Origin: a virus
Reading direction: 5' to 3' (one strand)
IMG/VR virus record: IMGVR_UViG_3300042448_000791
Location: 1 to 41,723 of that record
DNA: 41,723 bases
The notes under the pieces are model-generated. The model did not search any database, was not told the DNA's origin, and saw only the letters and a program-made list of their open reading frames with translations. Shown one piece after another: positions 1,482 to 39,772 of the stretch. Made by a program: the position numbers and the translations under genes. Positions within the stretch are counted from its first letter, which is position 1. Each line of letters begins with the position of its first letter.

Positions 1482-1489
1482 TATTTATA
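1482..1489 (+). promoter_or_regulatory. TATTTATA box, candidate late promoter for the gene at 1503
   Basis: An exact TATTTATA begins one base after the portal stop codon and ends 13 bases before the next ATG, followed by an A-run. The same box at similar spacing precedes many virion-type genes in the window. Its role as the late sigma's element is inferred. Confidence 0.6.
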
Positions 1490-1502
1490 ATAAAAAAAAA
1501 TT

Positions 1503-2219
1503 ATGAAATTTGGAATATTAAAATCAAGGATTGAAGATTGTTTAGTTGAATCTTATAGAAAAGATTCTCTAAAAAAAAATATGTTTGTTTTTGAAGAACT
1601 TGTATTAAAAAACAAATCTCTAAGTACACTTTATTTTTTATATGATGAACTTAGTAAAAACAAAGGTTTAAATGAATCTTTTATAAATGAATATATTAAC
1701 GAAAGTATTATATTATTTGAAAATACAATCTCTAAGGTAGAAAAAAACGACCTTAAAGATCTTAATATGTGGGTAGGTCATATTGTTTCAGAAAATAGGT
1801 ATCAAGACATTGATAATTTATTTTCATCTAACGCATCTACAATCGAAGAAAAATTAAGAAGTAAAAAAACTATTTCTGAAAATCTTAAAAAAGATCCATC
1901 AAAAGAAAAAAAAGTGATTGAGGTTCCATTAAAATCTATGGTTGAGGTGGCTAACAATACAATTAAATCACATATTGATAGTTTAACCGAAGGTGAGAAA
2001 AAACAACTTAATATTTTATTAAACACTTCCGATGAAAAACTTAATCAAAAATATGGATTTCTTAAAGAAGATGTGATTGAAAAATTAGAAACTTTATTAT
2101 CTAAAAATGAAGATTCCGAAACTAATCAAAAAATTAACGAAACAATAGAAAAATTACAAATAGAAAATTACGACAAATTAAATTATTTCAAATTAAAACA
2201 ATTAAATGAAAACATTTAA
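1503..2219 (+). CDS. Putative prohead core / internal head protein with capsid-targeting-like N-terminus
   Basis: This is a 238-residue Lys/Glu-rich, mostly helical protein in the slot where T4 has its small prohead-core genes 67 and 68. I do not recognise a domain. The N-terminus (MKFGILKSRIEDCLVE, then S17) is a short amphipathic peptide ending in L-V-E before Ser. That fits the [IL]-x-E cleavage rule of T4-type gp21 protease and resembles the removable capsid-targeting peptides of T4 internal proteins. The late-type box at 1482 supports virion expression. The stop overlaps the bS21 stop on the other strand by four bases. The head role is inferred from position and N-terminus only. Confidence 0.6.
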   Translation: MKFGILKSRIEDCLVESYRKDSLKKNMFVFEELVLKNKSLSTLYFLYDELSKNKGLNESFINEYINESIILFENTISKVEKNDLKDLNMWVGHIVSENRYQDIDNLFSSNASTIEEKLRSKKTISENLKKDPSKEKKVIEVPLKSMVEVANNTIKSHIDSLTEGEKKQLNILLNTSDEKLNQKYGFLKEDVIEKLETLLSKNEDSETNQKINETIEKLQIENYDKLNYFKLKQLNENI

Positions 2220-2404
2220 TTGTTAAGTATTTGTTTTTGTCTGTAAATAGCTTTATTTAAAATCTGTCTCTTAAGGACAGATTTTTTTGTATGTTCTTTT
2301 CTGTTATTAAGATGGGTGTTTTGTCTTGTTTTAATAACTTTACTTTTTAATTCTTTTAGAGCTTTTTCAATCCCCCCATTTTTATTAACTTTTACGATCA
2401 GCAT
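2216..2404 (-). CDS. rpsU: Phage-encoded ribosomal protein bS21
   Basis: This 62-residue basic protein matches bS21 over its whole length. It has the N-terminal MLIVKVNKNGGIEKALKELK, the Lys/Arg-rich middle, and the diagnostic C-terminal pattern KSVLKRQILNKAIYRQK. bS21 is a small-subunit protein near the mRNA exit and anti-Shine-Dalgarno region, and it acts in initiation. In Bacteroidota it helps hide the anti-Shine-Dalgarno sequence. bS21 is among the most common ribosomal proteins carried by phages. The gene sits alone on the minus strand inside the plus-strand head block and has its own host-type promoter, which suggests separate timing. Its stop overlaps that of the convergent gene by four bases. 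A role in redirecting host ribosomes is inference. Confidence 0.92.
   Translation of the reverse strand: MLIVKVNKNGGIEKALKELKSKVIKTRQNTHLNNRKEHTKKSVLKRQILNKAIYRQKQILNN
2261..2290 (+). terminator. Rho-independent terminator inside the antisense of bS21
   Basis: AATCTGTC (2261-2268), a 7-base loop, GACAGATT (2276-2283) and a T-run to about 2288 form an 8-bp stem with a U-tract on the plus strand. It would stop transcription coming from 1503-2219. It lies wholly within the bS21 coding region of the other strand, so the two genes share this DNA. Confidence 0.65.
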
Positions 2405-2424
2405 ATTTTTTTGTTATTAGTTTA

Positions 2425-2432
2425 TATATTTG
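2425..2432 (+). promoter_or_regulatory. Possible host-type -7 element for the gene at 2495
   Basis: TATATTTG matches the Bacteroidota -7 consensus TAnnTTTG and lies 62 bases upstream of the ATG at 2495. No TTG sits at the usual upstream distance; the nearest leaves an 11-base spacer. The call is therefore weak. Confidence 0.3.
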
Positions 2433-2442
2433 ATATATACTA

Positions 2443-2474
2443 CAAAATTAGTTATTATTATCTAAAATAAACAA
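2443..2474 (-). promoter_or_regulatory. Host-type promoter of the bS21 gene
   Basis: Read on the minus strand there is a TTG (2474-2472), a 21-base spacer and TAATTTTG (2450-2443). This matches the Bacteroidota primary-sigma promoter, a -33 TTG and a -7 TAnnTTTG. The -7 element is 38 bases from the bS21 ATG. It differs from the TATTTATA boxes of the head genes, suggesting that host RNA polymerase expresses bS21 before late transcription. Confidence 0.55.
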
Positions 2475-2494
2475 TATCAGTATGAAAAAAATTT

Positions 2495-2962: not shown

Positions 2963-2970
2963 TATTTATA
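2963..2970 (+). promoter_or_regulatory. TATTTATA box, candidate late promoter for prohead protease
   Basis: An exact TATTTATA starts at the last base of the upstream stop region and ends 13 bases before the protease ATG at 2984. This is the same spacing as for the gene at 1503. Confidence 0.6.
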
Positions 2971-4029: not shown

Positions 4030-4037
4030 TATTTATA
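4030..4037 (+). promoter_or_regulatory. TATTTATA box, candidate late promoter for scaffold and capsid genes
   Basis: An exact TATTTATA lies 18 bases before the scaffold ATG at 4056 and just after the terminator at 3956-3988, where a new promoter is needed. Confidence 0.62.
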
Positions 4038-7678: not shown

Positions 7679-7686
7679 TATTTATA
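7679..7686 (+). promoter_or_regulatory. TATTTATA box in a divergent intergenic region
   Basis: An exact box lies 14 bases before the ATG at 7701. It fixes that start, because a longer reading frame beginning at 7614 would swallow both the box and the start of the divergent gene. Confidence 0.55.
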
Positions 7687-7700: not shown

Positions 7701-8642
7701 ATGGATTTAAATCAAATAATAAAGAAAGTTTTATCTGAAGCAACTTCAGATAGTGGTGGGAGTAGAGGTTCATATATTGCACCAATGCAGTTAGGTGTTA
7801 GAAAATTTAAAAATTCTCAAAACGGACCATTCACAATACCTGTATCAAAATACGATAGTCCAATGTTAGAATTTGATAGTTATGATGGGTCAATGGATGA
7901 AACAAAAAAACAAATCAAAAAAATAGAGTCTAAAGCAAAAAAAGTTACAAATTATATTAAGAAACACCCGAACTCAACATTTAGTGATGATGATGGTAAT
8001 AATATTAACCAAACACCTGGTAAAAATAAAAAAATTGTACCTGTAAATGAATGGGTTGAAATAACTGAAGCAAGTACAAGTATAACTGCCGGTGAATATA
8101 GTGGTCCAATTGAAATAGGTTTAAAAAAATGGAGTAAAAGTGAGTTAGGTCCTTTTTACGAATTTATAGACAATAAATTAAATGATATTGCAATTAAAAA
8201 AAGTTTAAAAAATAATTTAAAAAGAATTGTTGGTGTTTGGGAAAAAGGTAAAGATGGAACTCATAACGTTAATACTCACGATGTTCATACAATAAATGAA
8301 GATTTAGGAGTTTGGTTTGGTAAAAAGAAGAAACCTAAAGGGTCTTCTCAACCAAAAGGACCTTGGGTTAACATTTGTAGTAAAGTTGACGGTAAACATC
8401 CTCCATGTGGACGACAGGATACTTCTAAAGGATCTTACCCTAAATGTAGGGCGGCTGGAGTTGCAGGTAAAATGAGTGATTCACAAAAAAGATCTGCCTG
8501 TCAACAAAAAAGAACCGCAGAAAAAAAAGACACTCAGACAGGAAAAGGACAAAAACCTATTATGACATCATATAAAACAAAAAAGGAATCCGTAGATTCC
8601 TTAGTTGATAATATTTTATTTGAAATTAGAAACTCGGTCTAA
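7701..8642 (+). CDS. Putative internal head protein: two repeated cleavable modules and Cys-rich tail
   Basis: This 313-residue basic protein starts at the ATG just behind the late-type box; the frame stays open upstream to 7614, but that start is unlikely. The N-terminus MDLNQIIKKVLSE before Ala14 resembles a T4 capsid-targeting peptide with a gp21-type cut site. A related module recurs. After Glu13 there is ATSDSGG...YIAPMQLGVRKF...GPF, and after Glu123 (ITE before Ala) ASTSITAG...YSGPIEIGLKKW...GPF. The C-terminal part (about residues 215-300) has GPWVNICSKVDGKHPPCGR, YPKCRAAG and SACQQKR. This recalls the Cys-containing DUF5872-type domain of phage proteins. The domain name and head role are inferences. 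Confidence 0.6.
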   Translation: MDLNQIIKKVLSEATSDSGGSRGSYIAPMQLGVRKFKNSQNGPFTIPVSKYDSPMLEFDSYDGSMDETKKQIKKIESKAKKVTNYIKKHPNSTFSDDDGNNINQTPGKNKKIVPVNEWVEITEASTSITAGEYSGPIEIGLKKWSKSELGPFYEFIDNKLNDIAIKKSLKNNLKRIVGVWEKGKDGTHNVNTHDVHTINEDLGVWFGKKKKPKGSSQPKGPWVNICSKVDGKHPPCGRQDTSKGSYPKCRAAGVAGKMSDSQKRSACQQKRTAEKKDTQTGKGQKPIMTSYKTKKESVDSLVDNILFEIRNSV

Positions 8643-9115: not shown

Positions 9116-9598
9116 TTAACAATATGCTCCTGAACAATGTTTTTTACCATCAAGACCTTTAATCGTACCTTTACATACTTGTACTGCGTGTCCATTTGCA
9201 TATGCTGAAGGGTATACATCATATTTAGATTTTGCGGATGCAATACCTCTCGCACAAAGAGGTGTGCCAACTTTTTTATCTCCTTCCGACATTACCATAT
9301 CTTCATCATCAATATTCGTAGATGATTTCATACCGTCTCTTGTGGTTTCATTCATCATGAAATCAAATACTTGATCCATATTGTTTTTAGCTTCAGAAAT
9401 ATGATCTTGAGCCCAATCATGTCCATTATCTAAAATAGATTCAACCGTACTACGATCAAAATCTAATAATAAATCACATTGTCTTCTCATTTGTTCTAAA
9501 TTAGAAAAGAACATATATCGTTCACTTTTCTGTTCATTAAGGACTCTTTTTACCAAATTGGTAATGTCCGTTTCATTTAATCTTATTACTCTTTTCAT
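9116..9598 (-). CDS. Phage protein with C-terminal YPSAYANG motif
   Basis: This is a 160-residue protein. The N-terminus MKRVIRLNETDITNLVKRVLNEQ is a short basic amphipathic peptide of a kind seen at the start of several proteins here. The middle is helical and acidic. The C-terminal 45 residues contain LCARGIASAKSKYDVYPSAYANGHAV, followed by VCKG and a terminal CSGAYC. The ARA-K-K-x-D-V-YPSAYANG signature recurs in many large-phage proteins of unknown function. Four Cys in the tail suggest metal binding or disulfides. It lies 4 bases after the structural gene at 9603 in the same unit, so a virion role is plausible but unproven. Confidence 0.65.
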   Translation of the reverse strand: MKRVIRLNETDITNLVKRVLNEQKSERYMFFSNLEQMRRQCDLLLDFDRSTVESILDNGHDWAQDHISEAKNNMDQVFDFMMNETTRDGMKSSTNIDDEDMVMSEGDKKVGTPLCARGIASAKSKYDVYPSAYANGHAVQVCKGTIKGLDGKKHCSGAYC

Positions 9599-9999: not shown

Positions 10000-10007
10000 A
10001 ATAAATA
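10000..10007 (-). promoter_or_regulatory. TATTTATT variant box for the gene at 9989
   Basis: Read on the minus strand the box is TATTTATT, ending 10 bases before the ATG. The same variant and the same 10-base spacing occur before the lectin-like gene at 34586. Confidence 0.45.
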
Positions 10008-11480: not shown

Positions 11481-11488
11481 TATAAATA
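11481..11488 (-). promoter_or_regulatory. TATTTATA box, candidate late promoter on the minus strand
   Basis: An exact TATTTATA reads on the minus strand, 12 bases before the ATG at 11468. It shows that the box follows gene orientation, not one strand. Confidence 0.6.
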
Positions 11489-13255: not shown

Positions 13256-15163
13256 TTATTTACCATAACAAACTATTGGTATTGTTTGTCCAATTGGTGT
13301 TATACTTAGTGGGTATATTGCAATTTGTGATTTACCATTTGACGCATTTTCTTGATCTGAACCATCTAATAACGCTTTTATTGATGCCAACATTAAGTTA
13401 GGACTTCCATCTGGCATCGTACCTGTTGGTAACCCCAATTCTTCAAAATTTGCAATAACATTTAAAAATGCTCTATCTGAGGAATAACCACTTAAAAGTT
13501 TTGAACTTAATAATAATGGTAATGGGATGTCCCCACCAAATCCTTTTGATGCGATTTTTAACGCATTTAATAAAGCATCAATTACGCTTTTACATTCCCT
13601 AAAATCTTTTACAATTTTAGCAATTGCAATTAGTAATTCAGTTAAAGATAAAATTATATTTAATCTTTTATTATTTAATCCTCTAATTACATCTAAATTT
13701 ACTGATTGGACTAACTTCAAAATATCTTTTTTAATTATATCAAATAAAATTTTAACAAAAATTTCCCCCACTTTTGATGCAAATTTAATAAAGAACGATT
13801 TAAGTCTTCTTGCAAAATCCATAAATGAACTAATTTGTAAATCTAAACTTTGACCTAATGATTTTGTTATAATCATTAAAGGTAAAACAACTTTAGGTGA
13901 AAGGACTGTGGCCACCATTGCCTTTGGAAACTCTTTAAGGAATGATAAATCAATATTTATTTCCAATGGAAACCATCCTGGATTTTTAGTTAAAACATCA
14001 GTTAAATTAGCTGCGTCATCAATACTATTTGAATTATTTTTACCATCAACAAAGACTAAATTATTTAACGCATTTGTTATACTATCTGAATCAACAGGTA
14101 ATTTAACCGTATCACACTCCTCAAATTCAACTACCCCCATTTTTATGTCGGAAACTTTTGAGTCGATAAAACGTAAATCAATATCTGTAAATTCAAAGAA
14201 AGATTCGTCAACATTATCATTTTCAGACAATTTTGCAATTCCGGACACATCAATCTCTTTAGTATTATCAAAACATAGCCCTAATATTCTTTGCATGATT
14301 AACAGTATTTTTTGTAAGTCGTCTAAATCCGCATTACCATCTCCTTTTTTAATAGATATCGCACCTGTCAATTGATTCATAAGATTTGCAAAGAAATTAG
14401 TTTCATCAAAAAGTTTTATTGTTGTAAAATAATCTTTTAAAAATTCAGAAACTTTATTTGTAGTCATTCTATTTTTTAAATCAACTTTAAAAAAGTTACC
14501 TTGTATTGTTTGTGAAGTTGTTGGATCAACGTAAGACTCAACGTATGAAATATCAAATAATTCTTGACCTGATGTACCTTTATAACTTTGTCCCGATGCA
14601 GGAACACTAAATGGTTGGTTAATATTTTGAGTTCTATTATATAATTCCTTATTCATTGAAAATGGAAAACTACTATATTGAATACTTTTCTTTTCATATA
14701 ATAATTTACCCACATCTGTTGCAGGATCCTCTTTTAATGTGTTAAGTAGGTCAACTGACTTAACTCTAATATAAATCGTCTGAGGAACAAATTCTTGGTC
14801 TTGTGAACAACCTACGGCAGTTAACATTAATTCCAATAAAATATCATCTAATTTTGGTACGATTTCTTTAATTGCTTTTGTAAAAGTTTTTTTAAGATAA
14901 CTTTGACTACTTTTACCCGCACCCAATGACAAAAAGTTTAAGTCTAACAACTTATCAAATTGAGTTTTAATTTCTTTTTGATATTTGTTTTTTAATTTTT
15001 TTGCATCAGAAAGTTGTGTGGAAGTTTCAGATTTTTTCTTTTCTAAAGTTTTTCCAGCCTTTTTTCGTAGATCTTCAATATCACTATTAACTTTTTTATA
15101 TTTTTTTAATATAGTTGTTTTTTTATCTACTTCATTAAAACCATCTTCAGTATCCTGTGCCAT
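13256..15163 (-). CDS. Large putative tail/baseplate protein, 635 residues
   Basis: The N-terminus (about residues 1-70) is a Lys/Glu/Asp coiled coil. Two Cys-containing and beta-rich regions follow. Residues about 400-540 hold long hydrophobic helices (FPKAMVATVLSPKVVLPLMI, ILSLTELLIAIAKIVKDFR). These are amphipathic or buried, with no clear signal peptide. The C-terminus is more polar. I do not recognise the family. It precedes the gp5-like spike gene, overlaps the end of the gene at 15163 by one base, and is long enough for a baseplate hub or wedge component. Virion role is inferred from context. Confidence 0.6.
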   Translation of the reverse strand: MAQDTEDGFNEVDKKTTILKKYKKVNSDIEDLRKKAGKTLEKKKSETSTQLSDAKKLKNKYQKEIKTQFDKLLDLNFLSLGAGKSSQSYLKKTFTKAIKEIVPKLDDILLELMLTAVGCSQDQEFVPQTIYIRVKSVDLLNTLKEDPATDVGKLLYEKKSIQYSSFPFSMNKELYNRTQNINQPFSVPASGQSYKGTSGQELFDISYVESYVDPTTSQTIQGNFFKVDLKNRMTTNKVSEFLKDYFTTIKLFDETNFFANLMNQLTGAISIKKGDGNADLDDLQKILLIMQRILGLCFDNTKEIDVSGIAKLSENDNVDESFFEFTDIDLRFIDSKVSDIKMGVVEFEECDTVKLPVDSDSITNALNNLVFVDGKNNSNSIDDAANLTDVLTKNPGWFPLEINIDLSFLKEFPKAMVATVLSPKVVLPLMIITKSLGQSLDLQISSFMDFARRLKSFFIKFASKVGEIFVKILFDIIKKDILKLVQSVNLDVIRGLNNKRLNIILSLTELLIAIAKIVKDFRECKSVIDALLNALKIASKGFGGDIPLPLLLSSKLLSGYSSDRAFLNVIANFEELGLPTGTMPDGSPNLMLASIKALLDGSDQENASNGKSQIAIYPLSITPIGQTIPIVCYGK

Positions 15164-15537
15164 TATTTATTCAGTTTGTAACTATTATCTGTTGAGGTGT
15201 CTTTATCAATTAAACTTTTAAATGTGTCATCATCAAGATCCAAATCTGACAAAGTAAAATTATCTTCTTGTTTTTCCTGAGATTTTTGCCAAATTTGAGC
15301 TTGTAGTTTTGATAACGATAGTTTTTTCTCAACACAATCATTAATAATCTTTTGTTGTTTTTCAATAACAGGACCAATAAGAGTCATATCTTCTGGTTCT
15401 TTCATCATTGTTAACATCTTGTTTTGTATTCTAATTGCGGTATTTCTTTGTTCAACAAGTTCATTATAAATCTCTTGCATTAAAGATAACATTGATTCCT
15501 TAGTTAGATTAATTTCTTTTTTTGTTGGCCTTCCCAT
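15163..15537 (-). CDS. Hypothetical coiled-coil protein
   Basis: This 124-residue, strongly helical protein starts MGRPTKKEINLTKESMLSLMQEIYNEL. It has a central coiled coil (about residues 15-95) and an acidic C-terminal tail (LSDLDLDDDTFKSLID). The opening GRPTKKE is common in small phage packaging or assembly proteins, but I cannot assign one. It lies 20 bases after the late sigma gene and overlaps the next structural gene by one base, so all three probably share a transcript. Confidence 0.6.
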   Translation of the reverse strand: MGRPTKKEINLTKESMLSLMQEIYNELVEQRNTAIRIQNKMLTMMKEPEDMTLIGPVIEKQQKIINDCVEKKLSLSKLQAQIWQKSQEKQEDNFTLSDLDLDDDTFKSLIDKDTSTDNSYKLNK

Positions 15538-15557
15538 ATCTATAAGTATTTTTTATT

Positions 15558-16307
15558 CTATTTTAATAATTCATTTACGATATGAAAGTATATTTTTTTA
15601 TATCTTTTTAATGAATTACGTATTTCTTTTGTACTTAAATTGGTCATTTCCCTTAATTCAAACAGGATAATGTTCTTATTGAACTTATTATTATTTGATG
15701 TTTCTTGGAAAATTTCACCATAATTTGTAAAAATGTCAGTCAAAGCTTCTCCCAATTTTAATTCTTGTTCAGATATATTTGGTTCATTCATATTATCTTT
15801 AAGTTCATTAAGGAATTTTTTTATAATTTCTTCAGAACTTACATCGTCATTATCAATATAATAAATCATATCTGGCATATTATGAACATCACCCGAAATA
15901 TCTTCATAAGATATTTTTCTATTCATTTCTTTTTGGTCTTTTAAAATTTGCCCCATAAGATAATTTTTACAGATAGTTCCAAAATAAGAATAAGCCTTTT
16001 TCTCTTTAGCTGGCTTAAACTTGTCTATTTTAGTCATTAAAAATGAATGAGTATCCATGTGGATCTCCTCAAAGTCCATGTCTTTTCTGTATAATTTATA
16101 TCGTCTAATAATTGACGATATCATTTTATCTAAGGGGTGTTTTAAAAACTCATTATAAATTTTGTTCTTTTCGTCAAAAGATTCTGCGATTAGGTAGGCC
16201 CTAACCGCATCTTCTTCTCTTACGTCAAAATAATTATTTACTGTGGGCTTTCTTCCCTTCTTTTTCTTTTCAATTTCTTCGTTTGATAAATTACCATTTT
16301 CGGACAT
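15558..16307 (-). CDS. 55: Late-transcription sigma factor, T4 gp55-like
   Basis: This 249-residue divergent sigma-70 relative should direct host RNA polymerase to late promoters. A sigma region 2 pattern is visible. LDKMISSIIRRYKLY is followed by an acidic helix, then FKPAKEKKAYSYFGTICKNYLMGQILKDQ, the SYF-x-x-I-x-x-N-x-L core that contacts core polymerase and melts the -10 region. The C-terminus (ILFELREMTNLSTKEIRNSLKRYKKIY) resembles a short HTH or flap-binding tail. A basic AT-hook-like KKKKGRKP lies near the N-terminus. T4 gp55 is 185 residues. The start is the ATG at 16307 in a TGATG overlap with the preceding glycosyltransferase; the TTG at 16310 is not needed. Confidence 0.82.
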   Translation of the reverse strand: MSENGNLSNEEIEKKKKGRKPTVNNYFDVREEDAVRAYLIAESFDEKNKIYNEFLKHPLDKMISSIIRRYKLYRKDMDFEEIHMDTHSFLMTKIDKFKPAKEKKAYSYFGTICKNYLMGQILKDQKEMNRKISYEDISGDVHNMPDMIYYIDNDDVSSEEIIKKFLNELKDNMNEPNISEQELKLGEALTDIFTNYGEIFQETSNNNKFNKNIILFELREMTNLSTKEIRNSLKRYKKIYFHIVNELLK

Positions 16308-17113: not shown

Positions 17114-17114
17114 A

Positions 17115-18176: not shown

Positions 18177-18179
18177 GTT

Positions 18180-18434
18180 TTATATTTTATTTATTATTTT
18201 TTTCATTAAAAGTGTATTAAAGGCAATTTTAAAGGGAATAGTAACGTCATTATTTTTCATACCTAAATTTTCATCAACTTCTCCTATTTCGGTTAAAATA
18301 GTATCAACCATTGCTTTAACTGACTCATATTTTACTACGTGGATTTGAGTTTCACCACTTGTACCACTATACTGGACAAAGTCCTCTAATTTATCTAAAT
18401 CAATATAATAGTTTTCTCCAAACACATTAAACAT
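18180..18434 (-). CDS. Hypothetical small protein
   Basis: This is an 84-residue alpha/beta protein: MFNVFGENYYIDLDKLEDFVQ, a short TSGET turn, then helices and a basic C-terminus. No motif is recognised. It overlaps the HAD-like gene by 8 bases and ends 3 bases before the GT-B gene, so it belongs to the same transcript. Function unknown. Confidence 0.6.
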   Translation of the reverse strand: MFNVFGENYYIDLDKLEDFVQYSGTSGETQIHVVKYESVKAMVDTILTEIGEVDENLGMKNNDVTIPFKIAFNTLLMKKIINKI

Positions 18435-19865: not shown

Positions 19866-19873
19866 TATAAATA
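19866..19873 (-). promoter_or_regulatory. Distant TATTTATA box upstream of PhoH
   Basis: On the minus strand an exact TATTTATA lies 34 bases before the PhoH ATG. The distance is about twice that at the other genes, so it may be a promoter with a longer leader or a chance match in an AT-rich gap. Confidence 0.35.
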
Positions 19874-23604: not shown

Positions 23605-23610
23605 ATTATT

Positions 23611-25581: not shown

Positions 25582-26212
25582 ACACTTTAAATTTTGAAAG
25601 ATCGGGATAAGATAATTCTAAATCATCATTTTCTTTAGGTTTACCTGTTTTTGTTTCGTAAAATTGAGTTATCAATAGCAGCCCTCTTGCGGATATCTCC
25701 GGCATCATATAAAAGTTCCACCCAACAACTGGGTTGTTGTCAAAATCATCATCGTGATAACTACATTCGTCTCTACCACTAAACCTTGCTTTTTTGAACC
25801 ATTTATAAGCTTGTTCATCGTCAGTTAGAATTGCACCTCCCTTACCTAATTTTAGGTGTTTATAAGGGCCGGTAAAAGACAAACACATATGTGTATTAGG
25901 GACATACATATTAGATGTAAATCTTAAAGCACTATCCCATACTTTTGTTGGATATAATTGATACGCACCTTTTATTGTGTCACCCTCAACAGGTGTAAAT
26001 TTAACTTTACCTCCTGCATGAATAATCTCACAAGGTACCGAAGGGTATGTTCTTGACGGAATCTCAATGGTCATTCCTTTTATTTTTTCATAAGTTAATG
26101 CCAAGAATAACGCATTACTTTGGTTGTCAACGGTAACAACATACTTTGCTCCCGTATAGTGAGATAATTTCTTTTCAAAGTCTTCAGTTATTTTGTGTAC
26201 TCCTTGTGCCAT
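25571..26212 (-). CDS. Compact DegT/DnrJ/EryC1-like aminotransferase
   Basis: This 213-residue PLP enzyme is related to the sugar aminotransferases (DegT/StrS, normally about 370-400 residues). It has ITEDFEKKLSHYTGAKYVVTVDNQSNALFLAL and EIPSRTYPSVP, a cofactor-site segment VWDSALRF, and LSFTGPYKHLKLGKGGAIL, where Lys118 is the likely PLP lysine. The C-terminal domain is missing, yet the frame is intact and there is no sign of a frameshift nearby. It may be a naturally short form. It would make an amino sugar for the acyltransferase. Whether it is active is uncertain. Confidence 0.75.
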   Translation of the reverse strand: MAQGVHKITEDFEKKLSHYTGAKYVVTVDNQSNALFLALTYEKIKGMTIEIPSRTYPSVPCEIIHAGGKVKFTPVEGDTIKGAYQLYPTKVWDSALRFTSNMYVPNTHMCLSFTGPYKHLKLGKGGAILTDDEQAYKWFKKARFSGRDECSYHDDDFDNNPVVGWNFYMMPEISARGLLLITQFYETKTGKPKENDDLELSYPDLSKFKVYGQ

Positions 26213-26213
26213 A

Positions 26214-27725
26214 TTATATAATTATAATGTTATTTTTTATTTTGTCTATGTTATTTTTAATAGATGGAAGTAGATTATTGTGGTAATCGTAATTTAATTT
26301 TACCAAATTTTTTGGATCTTCATTTCTTGTTTGGGATTCATAATGATATGACACACATTCACTACATATATAGTTTTTAAAACCTGAGGATAAAAGATTC
26401 ATATTAACTTCAACATCTTCAAAACAAGAAACATAATTTTCATTAAACATTCCATATTTTTCAAAAGTGTAGTTTCTAACCATCATTAGACCACCCGTGT
26501 TACCAAAAACTTCTTTTGTTGAGTTAGAATAATTGTAATAGTTTTTTAAATTTAAATGTGTTACTCCAATTTTATTATCTATTTTACGAATGAACATTAA
26601 GATTCCATCATGTTGTATTGTGTTATCCTCAAAATGAAGTCTAGCTCCAACGGTACCTGTCATCCTATTTTTTTCAAATACTGACAACATTCCAGTAATA
26701 ACGTCATTCATTATTTTTATATCGTTATTAGAGAATAATAAAAATTCATATTCATCTTTAGGTAAGTTTTTTACAACATCATTATTAATCTTTGCAAAAT
26801 TATAGTAATCATACTCAATTAATTTAACATTCCCAAAAGGTAATATATTATCCTTAATCCAATTTTTTTCTTCTTCAGTTGACCCTGTGTCCGCAATGTA
26901 GACATCAAAAATTTTATAATCACAATGATCGTGAAATGATTTAACACATTCGTATAACATTTCAACTTTACCTTTAGTTGGTATTATAATTGCAATCTTA
27001 CCAAATTTTTTAAATTCTTTTCTTTTTATGTCTGGAGCGTAAATAAACGAAGGTTTTAAATCTAAAGGTAACATACTACCCCATTTCTCAACAAATTTTT
27101 CTTTACTCTCCCAAAATTCCTGATTTGGTTTACCTATAGATTGGTGAGTTATTTCAAAGGATGAGGTAACCCCAATTTTAATCCCATCTAAATAATTTGG
27201 AAGACAAAAAAGATGATCGTAAAAGTGAAATTTACCAATTGTTTCATCAAACCTATGTTTAATTTTTGTTTTATCAAATGACATAAATAAACCATCAATT
27301 GTAACGACAGGAATTAAAAATGGTAATTTAGGTGAATACTTGTTTAACCATTTTTTTTGTCCGTCAGGATGGTGATAAACTTGACCAACCATTGTTTGTT
27401 TCATTCTATCCCAATAAACGCCTGTTTCAGGAAAATAACAAGATCCGGCTTTTCCAATTATACCGAATTCGGGGTTATTAGAATAATCTTCTAATAATTT
27501 TTTACCCCAATTCTTTTCAAGTTTAATGTCGTTGTGACAACATACAACAATATCATAAATTGATTGTGTAACACCACTGTTATAAACTTCCGATAATGAA
27601 TATTGGTTATGGTTCACATATTCTAATATTTGAACATCTTTAACACCAACTGTTTGTAACAAATGTTGTTTAAATTTGTTATTATATTCTTGATCCTTAT
27701 GTGTTGAGTAGATAATCGTTATCAT
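26214..27725 (-). CDS. Two-domain glycosyltransferase (tandem GT-A)
   Basis: This is a 503-residue protein. The N-terminal half (about residues 1-240) is a GT-A-like domain: MITIIYSTHKDQEYNNKFKQ and DIVVCCHNDIKLEKNWG. The second half (from about residue 244) is a clear GT2: KIAIIIPTKGKVEMLYECV, DVYIADTGSTEEE, FLLFSNNDIKIMNDVI, with the acceptor-side GNTGGLMMVRNYTFEKYGMF and CFEDVEVNMNLL. Two catalytic domains suggest it adds two sugars in turn or makes a short repeat. It overlaps the gene at 27722 by 4 bases and lies 1 base before the aminotransferase. Confidence 0.85.
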   Translation of the reverse strand: MITIIYSTHKDQEYNNKFKQHLLQTVGVKDVQILEYVNHNQYSLSEVYNSGVTQSIYDIVVCCHNDIKLEKNWGKKLLEDYSNNPEFGIIGKAGSCYFPETGVYWDRMKQTMVGQVYHHPDGQKKWLNKYSPKLPFLIPVVTIDGLFMSFDKTKIKHRFDETIGKFHFYDHLFCLPNYLDGIKIGVTSSFEITHQSIGKPNQEFWESKEKFVEKWGSMLPLDLKPSFIYAPDIKRKEFKKFGKIAIIIPTKGKVEMLYECVKSFHDHCDYKIFDVYIADTGSTEEEKNWIKDNILPFGNVKLIEYDYYNFAKINNDVVKNLPKDEYEFLLFSNNDIKIMNDVITGMLSVFEKNRMTGTVGARLHFEDNTIQHDGILMFIRKIDNKIGVTHLNLKNYYNYSNSTKEVFGNTGGLMMVRNYTFEKYGMFNENYVSCFEDVEVNMNLLSSGFKNYICSECVSYHYESQTRNEDPKNLVKLNYDYHNNLLPSIKNNIDKIKNNIIII

Positions 27726-28555
27726 GTTAAAAAATTTTCATTGTAGTATTTTTTTGCATTTTCTTCTGATTTTACATAATGATGTTCACTCTGAACGGTT
27801 TGATAACCACTTGATAATTCTGACCAAAATGAATGTGTAAAATTTTTCCTATAATCCACAAATTTATATCCTTTTAAATGTAAACTTTTAAACCAAGGGA
27901 CACCGGCATCTGGCCCAAACACACCAAAAAATGGAGTGTTACCATTTGGGTATGTTTCTTTATTAGACATTTCCCGATTAATTAAACATGCCCATTCATT
28001 TAATCTACATTCGGGTAATGGTTTTGGGTTTATTGGGTCAATATTTTCTTTGTTAGTTCTTGAATATGGTAACTCTAATGATAGAACTTCTTCATAAGTT
28101 GGGTTCCAATCATAAAATTTTTCACCACTACATAAATTTGCATTTTTTGCCGGACAATTCCAACACTGACCAATTTCTCCAATACCTATAGAATCTTTTA
28201 TATTTTCTAGCATATTACCAATAATGTCTCCCGTATATAAAACATCATTGTGAGTTATAAAAATAAATTCTTTATCACTATGCTCAAAACCATATTGAGC
28301 AAAAAGTTTAAGTCTATCGTTTTGGTTATGTATATCTTTTAATTTATATATAAAAGAAGTTTCTCTTTCGTAAATTAATAAATTATCAAAATAATCCGTA
28401 ACCCAATCAACATTATCATTAAAAGGATGTGTTGGTTCTTTTATGAAAAATATTTTATCAATGTGTTCTCCCGAATGACTCATTAAACTTTTTAATGTAC
28501 ATAAAGTTTGCCAAGGTTTCCCATAAATTGGTATTAATACGTCTACTTTTTTCAT
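27722..28555 (-). CDS. Family 2-like glycosyltransferase
   Basis: This 277-residue protein opens with KVDVLIPIYGKPWQTLCTLKSL and has FIFITHNDVLYTGDIIGNML, with an N-D pair where GT2 has DxD. A middle Cys group (CWNCPAKNANLCSG) may bind a metal. The rest, PFFGVFGPDAGVPWFKSLHL, looks like an acceptor-binding domain. It lies 6 bases after the dUTPase gene and overlaps the tandem GT by 4. The DxD is not perfect, so activity is less sure than in its neighbours. Confidence 0.7.
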   Translation of the reverse strand: MKKVDVLIPIYGKPWQTLCTLKSLMSHSGEHIDKIFFIKEPTHPFNDNVDWVTDYFDNLLIYERETSFIYKLKDIHNQNDRLKLFAQYGFEHSDKEFIFITHNDVLYTGDIIGNMLENIKDSIGIGEIGQCWNCPAKNANLCSGEKFYDWNPTYEEVLSLELPYSRTNKENIDPINPKPLPECRLNEWACLINREMSNKETYPNGNTPFFGVFGPDAGVPWFKSLHLKGYKFVDYRKNFTHSFWSELSSGYQTVQSEHHYVKSEENAKKYYNENFLT

Positions 28556-28561
28556 ATTCGT

Positions 28562-29143
28562 TTATAATCCAGTACTACCAAATCCATTATCAGATCTGTC
28601 TTTATTCTTTATTGTGTTAACTTTTATTAAATCCAACCATTTTCCACATACCACAGGACACACAACCGCTTGAGCAATTTTTTGACCTTCTTTAATCTCA
28701 ACAGGACTATTTGTTGTGTTGAATAATATAACTTTAATTTCACCTGTGTATCCTTGATCTACGGTTCCTGGTGAGTTCAATACCATTAGACCTTGATTAA
28801 TTGCTAACCCACTTTTTGATCTAATCTGAATTTCATAATTTTCGGGAACATCAAAATTAACTCCCGTTGGTATTAATATTCTACCAAATGGTTCAATAGT
28901 TAATGATTCCATTGAATATAAATCCATACCTGAATCAGTTGGATATGCAAAATTAGGATCGTATTTTTTTGATGAAAACTCTAATTTCATTGTTGGTTGA
29001 TAAGATTCCATTTCTTTTTCAAGTTCAAAAAGATCCAACCCATGTTTATCTATAATTTCATCATAGTTCATTTCATTCATGTCTTCACCAAACATTGAAT
29101 CTAATTCTTCTAATTGTTTTATTAATTTTGTAACGTCATCCAT
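28562..29143 (-). CDS. dut: dUTPase (dUTP pyrophosphatase) with N-terminal extension
   Basis: This 193-residue enzyme converts dUTP to dUMP and keeps uracil out of phage DNA. All five motifs of the trimeric dUTPase are present: DSGMDLYS (70-77), RSKSGLA (108-114), the substrate loop GTVDQGYTGEIKV (126-138), GQKIAQAVV (153-161), and the C-terminal RSDNGFGSTG (183-192). The enzyme domain starts near residue 52. The first 50 residues are an added acidic helical extension not needed for catalysis. It overlaps the exonuclease by one base and sits inside the glycan island. Confidence 0.96.
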   Translation of the reverse strand: MDDVTKLIKQLEELDSMFGEDMNEMNYDEIIDKHGLDLFELEKEMESYQPTMKLEFSSKKYDPNFAYPTDSGMDLYSMESLTIEPFGRILIPTGVNFDVPENYEIQIRSKSGLAINQGLMVLNSPGTVDQGYTGEIKVILFNTTNSPVEIKEGQKIAQAVVCPVVCGKWLDLIKVNTIKNKDRSDNGFGSTGL

Positions 29144-29844
29144 TATTTTAATTCTTTTAATTTAATAATTGCATCAATTAGTACCTCAACATCTCTCTCA
29201 CAGTACTCTCCAATTTCTTTTAACATACCTTTGTTCCAATAACAATCATGAACTTTGTCACCAGTTACGTCACCACCTTTTGGTGTTGGTATATCTAAAC
29301 AAGAACACATTAAATCTAATGACCCAATTGCGGTGTATGCTCCGTATTGCCACACATCCTTTGTGTCAATTGCTTTAACTTCCCAAGGTTTTGTGTCATA
29401 GGATGGTAGAATTGAAGATGGTTTTAATCCATTGATGATCATTCTTTTTGCAATCATTGGAATGTCAAAGTTTTTTAAATTGTGACCACATAAGTAAAAA
29501 TCCAATTTACCACAACGATTTAATAACGTTTGTAAATCTTTTAATAGTTCACCCTCATTATCACTTGAGAATGTTTGTTTTTTAACTTCATTGTTATCCA
29601 TAACAAATGCAACACTAACACAAACTATTTTTGCAAACTCAGGAACTAATGCGGTTCTTCTTGTGAAAATTTCATCCAAAGATGATTGTGAGTCCTCAGG
29701 AAATCTTTTGTGAAACCAATCAATATATTTCACAAATTGTTCGGCAACTCTTGGGTATTCTTTTACACAAGTTTGATAATCTTTTGTTATTCCCACAGTT
29801 TCAATGTCAAGGAATAAAATTTTTGTAATTGGAATATTAATCAT
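29143..29844 (-). CDS. 3'-5' exonuclease, DnaQ/PolB-like (DEDDy)
   Basis: This 233-residue protein of the PolB-type 3'-5' exonuclease family shows Exo I ILFLDIETVGI (Asp13, Glu15), Exo II CGHNLKNFDIP (near residue 120), and Exo III with GEYCERDVEVL (Tyr and Asp near the end). The stand-alone domain resembles exonucleases that proofread or process DNA 3' ends. Between Exo II and III lies a moderate insertion. It overlaps dUTPase by one base and the cytidylyltransferase by eight. All metal-binding residues are present, so activity is likely. Confidence 0.87.
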   Translation of the reverse strand: MINIPITKILFLDIETVGITKDYQTCVKEYPRVAEQFVKYIDWFHKRFPEDSQSSLDEIFTRRTALVPEFAKIVCVSVAFVMDNNEVKKQTFSSDNEGELLKDLQTLLNRCGKLDFYLCGHNLKNFDIPMIAKRMIINGLKPSSILPSYDTKPWEVKAIDTKDVWQYGAYTAIGSLDLMCSCLDIPTPKGGDVTGDKVHDCYWNKGMLKEIGEYCERDVEVLIDAIIKLKELK

Positions 29845-30295
29845 TTGATTCTAAATTTTTTATTAAATCTGGATTTTGTTTTAAAGTTTGTATTGTAATA
29901 AGGTCTTTTATTTTGGTTGTTGACCAATTATGTGACCTAGTTGTGTAAATAACCTCAATAGGTAGGTGATCACCCGTAAATCGTTTACCTATGTAATCAT
30001 CACCTAAAATTCTTACATCAGGTTTGTAAAATTCAATTAACTTAATAAGATCTTCTTCGGTTTGATATGTTACAACCTCATCAACGTATTTTATTGACAT
30101 CAAAGTTTTATACCTTTCATACAAAGGTATAACTGGTTTATATTTAGTGAATCTTGTTTCAGATGGATCTCTTTGTAAGAATACCATAAAATAATCACAA
30201 TTTTCTTTTGCGGTTTCAAATGTGTATATGTAACCTGGATGTAACAAATCAAAGTTACCTGCCGTAAAACCTATTATTCCTTTTTTATTGTTCAT
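29837..30295 (-). CDS. Cytidylyltransferase-like protein (TagD/glycerol-3-phosphate type)
   Basis: This 152-residue nucleotidyltransferase fold has GFTAGNFDLLHPGYIYTFETA (HxGH region) and VDEVVTYQTEEDLI, then ILGDDYIGKRFTG. The C-terminal RSHNWSTTKIKDL matches the R-x-x-x-S-T-T motif of TagD-like enzymes. The HxGH motif reads H-P-G-Y, so the second catalytic His is Tyr. This may lower or change activity. In the island it would activate a polyol or sugar phosphate with CTP. It lies 1 base before the GT-B gene. Confidence 0.78.
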   Translation of the reverse strand: MNNKKGIIGFTAGNFDLLHPGYIYTFETAKENCDYFMVFLQRDPSETRFTKYKPVIPLYERYKTLMSIKYVDEVVTYQTEEDLIKLIEFYKPDVRILGDDYIGKRFTGDHLPIEVIYTTRSHNWSTTKIKDLITIQTLKQNPDLIKNLESND

Positions 30296-30296
30296 G

Positions 30297-31511
30297 TTAT
30301 TTAATTAAAGATTTATAAAATTCTGATCTTGTTTTAGTGACTTGGTTAAGGTCATATTTGTCTTTTACCGTTTCGTATAATCTTTCACCAAGATCAACAA
30401 TCATACTTGGGTTGTCAACCAATTTTTTAATATTTTTTGCCCAATCACTATGATTATTATTTTCATTAACTAATAAAGCATTACCATCGGTAAATTGACC
30501 TTGATGTAAAGCGTGTTTCAAATCAATAGTATATGGACCAACATTTGACGCAATTAATGCTTTCTTATAAAATCCCGCCTCAATAACTTTTAATTGAGAT
30601 TTCATTCTATTAAAAATATGATTTTGAATTGGCGCTAACGATATATCAAATTTAGAATAATTTTTAGCGTAAGATGTAACAGGTTTTGTCCATACTCTAA
30701 CATAATTTTCATTTTCCCAACCATTGTATGTACCATCTTCAAATTTATCTAAGAATTCTTTATACTTTGGTGTTATAATTTTATAATCGTTTGTAAAAAT
30801 TTTCTCATATTTAATCCAAACTGTTTCTTCAGGTTTTATTGGTCTTTGGGTTTTTTCTCCCGTTTGTTTATTTAATTCGGTAACAGTTCCACGAATGTCA
30901 AAACCACAAACAAAATATTGTAATTTATCTTGTAATGGTGATAATTTAGAAATTGTACCATCCATTAACTTTAAATCGTGTAAATGTGAAGAACCTCCTA
31001 ACCAACCAATTCTGATTTTATCTGATGATAATGTTGGTTCTTTAAATTGTGATTCATTTGGGTCAATAGCATTTGGGAATACAACAACATTCTTATTAAA
31101 TTTACGAATCTCATCTGCAAAAATTTCTGTTGTTGTAATAACATACGAACAAACTTTTAAATTTTTAATGATTTTCTCATGTAATTTATTTTGCATAATT
31201 AATTGATGAATAGGATGTTCCTTTGTTGGTAACCAATAGTCATCAATGTCACCAACAACAACAATTCCCATACCTTTTAATTTCTCAATCAAAGCAGGAC
31301 ATGAGTCATAGTCTTGTCCAATACTACGGTGGAAATGAACTATTTGATATTTTTTCCAATAGTTGTCATCTTGAATTTTAGGTGTGTAATCAATATCAAC
31401 GTGAAAGTCGTTAGGATATATATTTTGTAATTTTACGTGTGGATCTACCGATCTAAATTTCCCAACACCTGATGTGTCTGAGGGCAATACTAATACATTA
31501 ATTTTTTCCAT
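30297..31511 (-). CDS. GT-B glycosyltransferase (GT4-like), first gene of glycan island
   Basis: This 404-residue protein starts at ATG 31511 (MEKINVLVLPSD). The frame runs on to a TTG at 31571 but would swallow the promoter. The N-lobe has GVGKFRSVDPHVKLQ and YQIVHFHRSIG. The C-lobe has KIRIGWLGGSSHLHDL and the donor-site segment SQLKVIEAGFYKKALIASNVGPY, with a Glu in the GT4 position. The length is normal for GT4. It is the promoter-proximal gene of a minus-strand run of fifteen genes reaching 19882. Substrate unknown. Confidence 0.85.
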   Translation of the reverse strand: MEKINVLVLPSDTSGVGKFRSVDPHVKLQNIYPNDFHVDIDYTPKIQDDNYWKKYQIVHFHRSIGQDYDSCPALIEKLKGMGIVVVGDIDDYWLPTKEHPIHQLIMQNKLHEKIIKNLKVCSYVITTTEIFADEIRKFNKNVVVFPNAIDPNESQFKEPTLSSDKIRIGWLGGSSHLHDLKLMDGTISKLSPLQDKLQYFVCGFDIRGTVTELNKQTGEKTQRPIKPEETVWIKYEKIFTNDYKIITPKYKEFLDKFEDGTYNGWENENYVRVWTKPVTSYAKNYSKFDISLAPIQNHIFNRMKSQLKVIEAGFYKKALIASNVGPYTIDLKHALHQGQFTDGNALLVNENNNHSDWAKNIKKLVDNPSMIVDLGERLYETVKDKYDLNQVTKTRSEFYKSLIK

Positions 31512-31527
31512 AGTTATAATAATAATA

Positions 31528-31558
31528 GAAATATAATCTAATTCTATAGAAATATCAA
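31528..31558 (-). promoter_or_regulatory. Host-like promoter of the glycan island
   Basis: On the minus strand there is a TTG (31558-31556), a 20-base spacer and TATATTTC (31535-31528), one base off TAnnTTTG. It lies 16 bases upstream of the ATG at 31511 and just past the upstream terminator. This suggests early transcription by host polymerase. Confidence 0.45.
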
Positions 31559-31569
31559 CCCATAAAAAC

Positions 31570-31594
31570 AAAAAACCCCAATCATTGATTGAGG
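31570..31594 (-). terminator. Terminator after the 34531-31619 operon
   Basis: CCCCAATCA (31576-31584) and TGATTGAGG (31586-31594) form a nine-pair stem with one G-T pair. The minus strand runs into a T-run (31570-31575). It ends the minus-strand unit that began near 34531 and insulates the glycan island. Confidence 0.75.
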
Positions 31595-32223: not shown

Positions 32224-32628
32224 TTATGCTAAATTTTCTTCAGTGTTATCAAAGACTGCGTTAATAATAACTTTAGTCATACTTTTATCTCCGTTAGGAT
32301 TATAGTTTGGTCTTGGTTCATTAAATGTTTCTGCCGTTGGTCTGATAAATTGAACTTTGTCTAATCTAAACATTCTCCAACTTGGTAAAGGTTTTTCACC
32401 TAAGTACGCTCTGTGGGAAGCACCTTCCATGTCCCAAGCTCGTAATACAGGATTTCCACTTTTACTATAACCAAAACATACAGGTTCAATCGTTCTTAAA
32501 CCATTACCTCCCGGCTCACGACCATTATAATAAATCACAACGCGTCTTTTTTTCTTAATAGCATCAACTACTGATTCAATTGATGCTACTTCAACAATAA
32601 GACCTTTTAATGTATTGTAAAGTTTCAT
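32224..32628 (-). CDS. Stand-alone WYL-domain-like protein
   Basis: This 134-residue protein resembles the WYL domain: KKRRVVIYYNG, then RTIEPVCFGYSKSGNPVLRAWDMEG and PSWRMFRLDKVQFI. In bacteria WYL domains bind nucleic acids or other ligands and regulate transcription or defence genes, usually fused to a winged helix. Here it stands alone, with no DNA-binding helix. The N-terminus MKLYNTLKGLIVEVAS again looks like a short amphipathic lead. Its start overlaps the stop of the gene at 32628. Role unknown: regulator, anti-defence or structural. Confidence 0.6.
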   Translation of the reverse strand: MKLYNTLKGLIVEVASIESVVDAIKKKRRVVIYYNGREPGGNGLRTIEPVCFGYSKSGNPVLRAWDMEGASHRAYLGEKPLPSWRMFRLDKVQFIRPTAETFNEPRPNYNPNGDKSMTKVIINAVFDNTEENLA

Positions 32629-32915: not shown

Positions 32916-32916
32916 A

Positions 32917-34546: not shown

Positions 34547-34554
34547 TATAAATA
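34547..34554 (-). promoter_or_regulatory. TATTTATA box, candidate late promoter (minus strand)
   Basis: Read on the minus strand this is an exact TATTTATA, 15 bases before ATG 34531. It supports the shorter start. Its partner at 34568 points the other way, so each divergent gene has its own box. Confidence 0.6.
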
Positions 34555-34567: not shown

Positions 34568-34575
34568 TATTTATT
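34568..34575 (+). promoter_or_regulatory. TATTTATT variant box for the lectin-like gene
   Basis: TATTTATT ends 10 bases before the ATG at 34586, the same variant and spacing as for the gene at 9989. Confidence 0.45.
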
Positions 34576-38878: not shown

Positions 38879-38893
38879 AATAATTTCAGATTG

Positions 38894-38901
38894 TATTTAT
38901 A
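38894..38901 (+). promoter_or_regulatory. TATTTATA box, candidate late promoter
   Basis: An exact TATTTATA ends 11 bases before the ATG at 38913 in a short gap after the lectin-like gene. The purine-rich AAGG just before the ATG could help initiation. Confidence 0.6.
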
Positions 38902-38912
38902 GGTAAACAAGG

Positions 38913-39413
38913 ATGAGTCAAACTATAATAATACAAAGTGTTAATTACGATGGTGAGGTTGCAAATATAATATTTAAACCTGACAATGATAATATTGTAA
39001 TTAATTTAGGTGATGTAACTTTACCTTGTACGTTTAACCCTTCGTTGTTAACACCACCAAGAGAAATATATGGTACTTATACTATATTAGTATTAAACGA
39101 TCAATGTCTTGATAGTGATTGCCCTAATATATTAAATGTTGTTAGACCAACTCCTACACCAACACCTACACCAACATTAACAAAAACACCTACGCCAACA
39201 CCAACTCAAACGGTTACTCCGACTGAAACTAAATATGTTTGTATACCAACACCAACAATTACGGTAACACAAACAATGACTCAAACACTAACTCCCACAC
39301 CTCACCCTACGTGTACAAATCCGTGTGGTTGTCCATCACCAAGTAGAACGCCTAAACCAACAAGGACACCAACATTAACGGTAACAAATGGATATTGTCC
39401 AATACTACCGTAG
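38913..39413 (+). CDS. Thr-Pro-rich putative tail fibre accessory protein
   Basis: This 166-residue protein has an N-terminal beta domain (residues 1-78: TIIIQSVNYDGEVANIIFKP, then a Cys pair). A long Thr-Pro repeat follows (about 79-155: PTPTPTPTLTKTPTPTPTQTV, then PTPTITVTQTMTQT). The C-terminus has Cys and Arg (CTNPCGCPSPSRTPKPTRTP). The repeat is the same kind as the linkers of the lectin-like neighbour. It may act as an extended stalk. The next gene follows 33 bases later. Confidence 0.65.
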   Translation: MSQTIIIQSVNYDGEVANIIFKPDNDNIVINLGDVTLPCTFNPSLLTPPREIYGTYTILVLNDQCLDSDCPNILNVVRPTPTPTPTPTLTKTPTPTPTQTVTPTETKYVCIPTPTITVTQTMTQTLTPTPHPTCTNPCGCPSPSRTPKPTRTPTLTVTNGYCPILP

Positions 39414-39446
39414 TTTGTTTTTTTATTATCAAACTATTTATGGTAT

Positions 39447-39752
39447 ATGTTAATATTACAAATTGATGGAATAACAGGTGCTACCGCACCCTACGTTTTA
39501 TATGTCTGCGATGTCTATGGTAATCAATGTGCAATTTTGGCAACAATAAACACTCCGATTCCACCATCAATAACATTAAACGTACCATCTCAATTTAATA
39601 ATGTTCCTGCAATTGGTCTTAAAATAATTGATGCAAATGGTTGTGAAGAATTTGGAATCATATATTGTGGGGATGCCAAGGGTAAAATATTCCAATCAGC
39701 GGAGGTATTCTTATTCATGGATGGAAATATTTATATTTTTGAGGACCAATAA
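39447..39752 (+). CDS. Small SprB-repeat-like protein
   Basis: This 101-residue beta protein resembles one SprB/Ig-like repeat of Bacteroidota adhesins: GITGATAPYVLYVCDVYGNQC, then LKIIDANGCEEFGI. The D-A-N-G-C motif closes many such repeats. The final part (KGKIFQSAEVFLFMDGNIYIFED) is a further beta hairpin. It sits between the Thr-Pro-rich protein and the collagen-like fibre and is likely a virion component. It has a near-match TATTTATG at 39435 but at only four bases from the ATG, so its promoter is unclear. Confidence 0.6.
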   Translation: MLILQIDGITGATAPYVLYVCDVYGNQCAILATINTPIPPSITLNVPSQFNNVPAIGLKIIDANGCEEFGIIYCGDAKGKIFQSAEVFLFMDGNIYIFEDQ

Positions 39753-39764
39753 TAAAATTTTTAA

Positions 39765-39772
39765 TATTTATA
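39765..39772 (+). promoter_or_regulatory. TATTTATA box, candidate late promoter for the collagen-like fibre
   Basis: An exact TATTTATA ends 11 bases before the ATG at 39784. It follows the preceding stop directly and is followed by AGAGG near the ATG. Confidence 0.6.

Follow-up and report, generated by a model that had tools for sequence, protein, structure and literature searches.

A very probable T4-like late promoter of new specificity, with a predicted leaderless subset, in a clade of jumbo phages

The late promoters of phage T4 are the closest described counterpart of the element reported here, TATTTATA, an 8-bp box found upstream of start codons in a virus sequence of 41,723 nucleotides (nt) (IMG/VR record IMGVR_UViG_3300042448_000791, positions 1 to 41,723; the window hereafter) and in its relatives. 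T4 late promoters have an 8-bp TATA box near -10, AT-rich DNA just downstream and no -35 hexamer, serve virion genes on both strands and go with a gp55-type region-2 sigma (PMC2988020, PMC7892883); the new element resembles them in these features, its -10 position being a prediction. The window carries T4-type portal, prohead protease and major capsid genes together with a gp55-like sigma gene on the minus strand (15558..16307). Our analyses indicate with good confidence that TATTTATA is a -10-type late-promoter element of a T4-like phage clade, most likely read by the gp55-like sigma with the host polymerase, and that it very probably represents a T4-like late promoter of new specificity with a conserved subset of predicted leaderless messages.

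Set in the same orientation, TATTTATA differs from the T4 box TATAAATA only in having TT for AA at -10/-9; among the three bases flipped out by T4 gp55 (PMC7892883), it keeps -12A and -8A. The first-pass annotation had regarded it as the reverse-complement form of the T4 box; this reading was abandoned, since each box is oriented with its gene and, in register, departs from the T4 sequence at just two bases. The string TATTTATA does occur in PMC7892883, as the template strand of a T4 TATAAATA oligonucleotide, while a search of one open-licence library, matching at word starts, found no text that has TATTTATA together with late promoter and phage. A change of box within the gp55 family is also described for Aeromonas phage Aeh1 (PMC2988020), whose late box has a/gC at -13/-12, whereas the clade changes -10/-9. 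Like T4 sites, the clade boxes are AT-rich downstream and have no upstream hexamer, at a predicted distance from +1. Unlike T4 sites, where the positions -16 to -13 from the box are 32-64% AT, they have upstream AT patches, and their sigma, unlike T4 gp55, has a C-terminal extension; gp33 and gp45 were not credibly detected in the clade.

Bacteroidota sigma-A promoters (TAHHTTTG at -12..-5) provide the second comparison. In Flavobacterium johnsoniae these have AT motifs at -18 and -28 and a -7 box that ends 4-5 nt before the start (PMC6847099), and the clade sites resemble them both in AT motifs near -18/-28 and in a predicted short distance from box to start. The -7 box itself is replaced in the clade by TATTTATA. 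Leaderless mRNAs are known from Flavobacterium, and messages that open with the AUG or have it close to their 5' end are feasible in such hosts; leaderless mRNAs make up 5.5% of the mapped F. psychrophilum mRNAs (PMC9723704), compared with a predicted share of about a third among boxed phage genes.

Since the window record comprises only 41.7 kb, genome-wide analyses were run on relatives. The best 80 loci each from capsid and sigma searches of a viral collection (160 loci) were dereplicated, and 98 of them were kept with the window (99 sequences, 1478 open reading frames (ORFs)). Fourteen records were scanned for an extended motif, and three long contigs of 296, 273 and 304 kb (873 kb; G001-G003, the jumbo genomes below) were analysed whole, with ORF starts called mechanically as the first ATG. 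In the 99 sequences, 297 copies of TATTTATA lie within 60 nt of an ATG, with peaks at 3-5 and 11-14 nt, against 60 copies of TATAAATA with a small peak at 7-11 nt. Upstream of the ORFs of the three jumbo genomes, no 7-mer stood out more than the core TATTTAT, with 313 copies against 61.5 under a second-order Markov model (z=32), in a run that took in only 82 kb of the Microcystis phage Mel-JY01. Exact boxes were found 2-22 nt before ORFs at 50 of 137, 42 of 129 and 42 of 115 occurrences in the jumbo genomes (P of 1e-21 or less each) and at 20 of 45 in the Flavobacterium phage immuto (P=4e-10); in Mel-JY01, 13 of 63 lie 2-45 nt before ORFs (P=9e-6). The genome-wide enrichment upstream of starts on which the first-pass annotation had staked its prediction is thus present in the relatives. 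In the window, the total of 10 copies is not above chance (10.5 in dinucleotide shuffles) and position alone stands out: with 45 curated starts, 8 of the 10 are followed by a start after 2-22 nt (P=8.6e-10). Other A/T-only 8-mers do so in 4.6% of cases, and the fraction for TATTTATA is the highest among those with at least 6 copies.

The box is also specific in sequence. Single-base changes at -13 to -7 reduced the enrichment from 37.6-fold to 8.1-fold or less, while position -6 tolerates A, T or C, giving a strict core TATTTAT with A or T preferred as the last base. T4 has 20 of its 32 TATAAATA copies 2-45 nt before ORFs, a strong placement (P=3e-18), and these lie mostly 17-29 nt from the ATG, as against mostly 3-16 nt for the clade box; in the clade TATTTATA stands in its stead. 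We considered TATAAATA as a second box, being raised in G001 (17/137, P=0.003) and G003 (20/115, P=1e-5), and discounted it because of overlap: 24 of the 48 copies located 2-22 nt before jumbo ORFs are part of TATTTATAAATA, and the rest are at about background level.

Gene classes separate in the way expected from T4, where the late box precedes virion and not early genes. Among labelled genes, which cover 77 of 1081 ORFs, an exact box was present within 2-40 nt of 17 of the 37 virion genes and of none of the 28 in the replication/nucleotide class (p=9e-6). The corresponding counts for TATTTATN were 25 of 37 and 4 of 28, the four exceptions being the DnaB helicase in each of the three jumbo genomes and one single-stranded DNA-binding protein (SSB). 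These counts omit the truncated portal gene of the window and a GIY-YIG gene of G002 (script label T4 td; TATTTATT at 6 nt), and PhoH, sigma and endolysin were placed in neither class. In immuto the exact box precedes 7 of 19 virion and 0 of 23 replication/nucleotide genes, and its boxed genes include terminase, portal, sheath, tube, hub and tape measure. The bias toward virion genes that had been proposed for the window therefore holds in a milder form, late-biased rather than virion-only given DnaB, and the upstream regions of the glycosyltransferase-like, dUTPase and sigma genes lack the box, as had been stated.

The sigma gene encodes a region-2 domain followed by a helix-turn-helix-like C-terminal extension. 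Region-2 homology to gp55 is indicated by a profile match and by structure: the product matches PHROG_234, annotated 'late sigma', at E=1e-3, and its predicted model (mean predicted local distance difference test (pLDDT) 72) best matches the T4 gp55 open complex (7d7c_F; Z 9.6, root-mean-square deviation (rmsd) 10.4, 121 aligned residues), tied with other sigmas. In Pfam, Sigma70_r2 reached only E=0.03, under the cut-off; a PDB sequence search found no sigma among 17 sequences up to E=10, and Foldseek alone gave no match at E<=0.001 for either the sigma or the C-terminal domain model. The C-terminal 95 residues, absent from gp55, are predicted to form a helical domain (pLDDT 87) that matches SigA region 4 weakly (6ono_B; Z 5.2, rmsd 3.5, 68 of 69 residues), tied with unrelated helical folds; HTH_71 fell below its own cut-off in 9 of 26 members. 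By eye, the sigma has no tail of the clamp-binding type, the helical extension being in its place. The gp45 profile phrog_223 matched T4 and none of five jumbo records, immuto and Mel-JY01, with unknown contig completeness and with a sensitivity that is evidently limited, since Mel-JY01 encodes a gp44-type loader (6e-77) without a phrog_223 match. The gp33 profile phrog_254 gave only E values of 0.007 and 0.01 inside ORFs of 753 and 686 amino acids, which were discounted, in a search too insensitive to prove absence. A review of T4 late transcription asks at one point why no fused late sigma is known (PMC2988020); the window sigma is a candidate.

Every non-T4 phage checked for both, namely the window, the three whole jumbo genomes, immuto and Mel-JY01, has the box as well as the sigma, and the expectation that the box would go with a gp55-like sigma has held up. 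Because Mel-JY01, with Microcystis as its recorded host, also has the box, the box goes with the sigma clade rather than with host phylum. It is from this co-occurrence that we infer recognition of the box by the sigma. T4 gp55 flips out A-12 (Y97), A-9 (N13, H95) and A-8 (T99) (PMC7892883). In a 17-sigma alignment, in which the box of the T4-type members was checked for T4 only, Y97 is kept in all 10 sigmas of the TATTTATA clade and T99 is replaced by G, S or Q. The N13 equivalent is replaced in the clade as well, though two alignments disagree on the replacing residues. Among the 7 T4-type sigmas, 4 too have F in place of H95, and one, Moby, departs at N13, Y97 and T99.

The distance from box to ATG is bimodal, with modes at 3-6 and 10-16 nt. 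Counting, for each ORF of the three jumbo genomes and the window, the final TATTTAT no more than 45 nt away gave 300 sites, of which 104 lie at 2-6 nt (called leaderless below), 15 at 7-9, 112 at 10-16 and 145 at 9-22 nt (called leadered). The two modes have a common upstream pattern. At positions -16 to -13 from the box, AT content is 91/89/88/79% at leaderless and 96/96/92/81% at leadered sites, compared with 59-81% in coding controls (p=9.7e-15 for the 2-6 nt and 2.7e-24 for the 9-22 nt class against sense controls, 6e-10 and 1e-17 against antisense), and a control block at -24 to -20 shows no difference in either class. With the box set at -12 to -5, the AT patches fall near -19/-20 and at -28 to -25. 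In the leadered mode, the positions 4-6 nt past the box are 84, 87 and 91% A, and these would mark the same place as the leaderless start.

The spacing mode is a conserved property of the gene. Where both members of a reciprocal-best ortholog pair have a box at 2-22 nt, 94 of 100 pairs keep the mode; after correction for the non-independence of pairs, so do 40 of 44 gene families, where shuffles average 18.2 and 0 of 10,000 reach 40. The terminase spacing jumps between genomes from 4 to 12-13 nt, as would be expected of discrete modes. The bimodality, the conserved mode and the upstream AT pattern common to both modes are new here. Given 4-5 nt from box to start, the 3-6 nt mode implies a message that begins at or within about two bases of the AUG, and about a third of boxed genes (104 of 300 sites) would on this spacing make leaderless mRNA. 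The first-pass annotation had proposed that the box gives very short leaders, which remains the prediction, and had seen only a 10-18 nt mode; in the relatives the 3-6 nt mode comes close to it in frequency.

Promoter function, the start site and leaderless translation are what we infer from these patterns, in the following scheme. Host core RNA polymerase with the phage gp55-like sigma would read the box on the non-template strand and begin transcription about 4-5 nt past it. The AT patches, which lie one helical turn (about -19/-20) and two turns (about -28 to -25) upstream, would be a shared contact with the host polymerase, as in Flavobacterium promoters; a specific upstream contact by the C-terminal domain of the sigma was considered and is not needed, as the patches resemble those of flavobacterial sigma-A promoters. 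A box at 10-16 nt would yield a leader of roughly 5-12 nt and a box at 3-6 nt a message from the AUG or from within about two bases of it. Unboxed genes would use host sigma-A-type elements (TAHHTTTG), keeping early and late promoters apart.

Several observations weigh against this reading. TATTTATC is present upstream of the DnaB helicase in 3/3 jumbo genomes and of SSB in one, and it is because of the helicase that we call the box late-biased, not strictly virion-only. Of 4 genomes, only one has a box before the major capsid gene, and 12 of the 37 virion genes have no TATTTAT within 40 nt; for the major capsid gene of the window (5541, +), an A-rich leader and closeness to the preceding gene suggest read-through. 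TATTTATA is weakly placed in T4 too (4 of 32 at 2-22 nt, P=0.009), and AT-rich upstream DNA in general may thus account for part of the signal. The AT patch is present at the 31 sites with a spacing of 23-40 nt (p=4e-4), yet there the control block differs as well (p=0.01-0.03). Covariation of sigma and box is only partial, N13 being alignment-dependent and T99 replaced though -8A is kept, and the -9 pocket was accordingly set aside as proof of recognition, being not decisive. In the T4 register (-13 to -6), a box 3 nt from the ATG would have its +1 on the G of that ATG, which implies a start 1-2 nt closer, as in Flavobacterium, or a flexible one. Finally, an alignment beginning at residue 1-2 of both members was obtained for only 13 of 29 leaderless ortholog pairs (leadered 42/70, unboxed 197/350), and some leaderless starts may for this reason be misassigned.

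One alternative is that a distinct phage factor reads the box and the gp55-like protein has another role, such as middle transcription. The DnaB boxes would fit such a role, and so would the weak fit to PHROG_234 (E=1e-3 to 1e-4), a profile that also matches at E<=1 in 7 of 14 control genomes. The same profile nevertheless has a single match, the sigma, in each of G001-G005 and immuto (6 of 7 non-T4 records, E 1.5e-4 to 8e-3); in the seventh, Mel-JY01, the sigma was missed by PHROG_234 and recovered by tblastn. Together with the joint occurrence of box and sigma in every non-T4 phage checked for both, this leads us to consider a separate factor unlikely.

The alignment figures above, with starts set mechanically at the first ATG, would also be explained if the 3-6 nt mode were an artefact of miscalled starts, the true starts lying downstream and all messages being leadered. 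Against this, the mode is kept across families, many of the proteins concerned have a common, distinct N-terminal leader from this very ATG, and a small gene beginning M[GPAS]RP aligns from residue 1 in 13 chosen sequences. We regard the artefact as improbable, and retain the leaderless prediction for the 3-6 nt mode.

A promoter read by a host alternative sigma or by sigma-A, independently of the phage sigma, is a further possibility, and the likeness of the AT patches to flavobacterial sigma-A promoters does make it probable that the host core polymerase is involved. However, none of the 1313 ORFs on host-type contigs (80 loci, 1.44 Mb; picked by GroEL match and not known hosts) has an exact box at 2-22 nt, and the box is placed in Mel-JY01, whose recorded host is a cyanobacterium. 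Boxed upstream regions of G001-G003 (gap at least 40 nt) contain TAHHTTTG in 12 of 178 cases against 12.3 expected from base shuffles, no excess, whereas unboxed regions contain this flavobacterial-type element in 52 of 232 cases against 14.0 expected. Since the excess is confined to unboxed genes, early and late promoters look largely separate, and the elements of the unboxed genes are probable early promoters; the excess also hints that the hosts are Bacteroidota. Reading by a host sigma alone is accordingly unlikely.

That the box is no promoter and serves as a translation-initiation or mRNA-leader element, an AU-rich Shine-Dalgarno substitute in Bacteroidota, is the least credible reading, although the box lies a short distance before start codons and Flavobacterium, which lacks Shine-Dalgarno, relies on A-rich bases upstream (PMC6847099). 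Spacing is bimodal, with sites as far out as 33-36 nt (sheath, tube genes), and in either mode the AT pattern can be followed to -16 from the box. None of the 28 replication/nucleotide genes has the exact box (4 have TATTTATC), which is also unplaced before host-type genes. Boxed genes follow long intergenic gaps (median gap to the upstream same-strand gene in G001-G003 30-77 nt if boxed at 2-45 nt, 3-4 nt if unboxed), and in Mel-JY01 13 of 21 TATTTAT sites lie 31-42 nt from the ATG, several with separate GGAG-like signals.

A scan of the window located all ten boxes listed in the first-pass annotation at their coordinates and distances. On the plus strand, TATTTATA is found at 1482..1489 (ending 13 nt before ATG 1503), 2963..2970 (13 nt before the prohead protease ATG 2984, a gene with the exact box in 4/4 orthologs examined), 4030..4037 (18 nt before ATG 4056, whose acidic product, encoded upstream of the major capsid gene, is scaffold-like by position only), 7679..7686 (14 nt before ATG 7701), 38894..38901 (11 nt before ATG 38913) and 39765..39772 (11 nt before ATG 39784). 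The last of these precedes a collagen-like GTSGSSG repeat protein (39784-41721, +; Pfam Collagen 7e-87) that runs off the window. On the minus strand it is found at 11481..11488 (12 nt before ATG 11468) and 34547..34554 (15 nt before ATG 34531). The variant TATTTATT lies 10 nt before ATG 9989 (10000..10007, -) and 10 nt before ATG 34586 (34568..34575, +), the latter back to back with the minus-strand box at 34547..34554, a predicted pair of divergent promoters.

Three further sites were absent from that list. TATTTATA at 19866..19873 (-), overlapping a TATTTATT at 19873-19880, lies 34 nt before the PhoH ATG 19831; a second TATTTATA at 39728..39735 (+), 48 nt before ATG 39784 and within the end of the preceding ORF, is of uncertain function; and the variant TATTTATG at 39435..39442 (+) lies 4 nt before ATG 39447. 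The last is the one site of the window in leaderless position with its core intact. The other, a degenerate box TACTTATA at 15541..15548 (-), lies 3 nt before ATG 15537, and orthologs of this gene have TATTTATA 3-6 nt upstream, in the leaderless position.

The gene concerned (15163..15537, -) directly follows the sigma and encodes the small conserved M[GPAS]RP protein, with 66-93% identity to the window copy over 12 chosen loci and no Pfam match at E<=0.1. A small gene, alike by position, also stands just after the sigma in immuto and Mel-JY01, and that of immuto has its own TATTTATA box at 13 nt. Upstream of the sigma gene, the run 16307-31571 (-) holds glycosyltransferase-, methyltransferase- and aminotransferase-like genes and a dUTPase between virion genes, unboxed except for PhoH; functions in this run were assigned by eye except for dUTPase and PhoH. 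A WYL-domain protein at 32224-32628 (-; E=6e-5) is a possible phage regulator. In immuto (NC_055915.1; L169-L172) a second over-represented motif, pieced together as TATATTTAGGTATCAATAA, lies about 17-29 nt before starts (TTTAGGT: 16 observed, 1.0 expected) and is perhaps another promoter class.

In G001-G003 and the window, many late-box genes encode common N-terminal leaders, such as MKKIIRLTESDLTRIVKRVIxE, MNLQESIRRILREE and MKIIITEEQY..., often ending in [LI]xE. An ad hoc leader rule was satisfied by 31 of 104 leaderless and 32 of 157 leadered genes (difference p=0.10) and by 65 of 781 unboxed genes, compared with 1 of 88, 0 of 136 and 5 of 564, respectively, in a mid-protein control. In the window only 9116-9598 (-) passes the rule; 7701-8642 (+) has VLSE|ATSD. 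T4 gp21 cleaves at L/I-X-E, and T4 internal proteins carry such capsid-targeting sequences (PMC9026906). LINE|A is kept in all 53 extractable major capsid proteins. By analogy, there are possibly dozens of packaged, ejected proteins per phage. A bolder picture, in which a fused gp55 region 2 and region-4-like domain works with the host RNA polymerase without gp33 or gp45 and drives a large regulon with a conserved leaderless late subset, many of the late genes, leaderless or not, encoding capsid-targeted internal proteins, is one that we put forward tentatively and hold to be doubtful as a whole.

The sigma was confirmed in 529 stretches of one collection, which makes this an abundant clade of uncultivated jumbo phages. 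For this clade the box provides a concrete late-promoter consensus, from which late transcript starts are predicted to within a few bases. The bimodal spacing amounts to a natural experiment that sets leaderless against short-leader translation in bacteria without Shine-Dalgarno.

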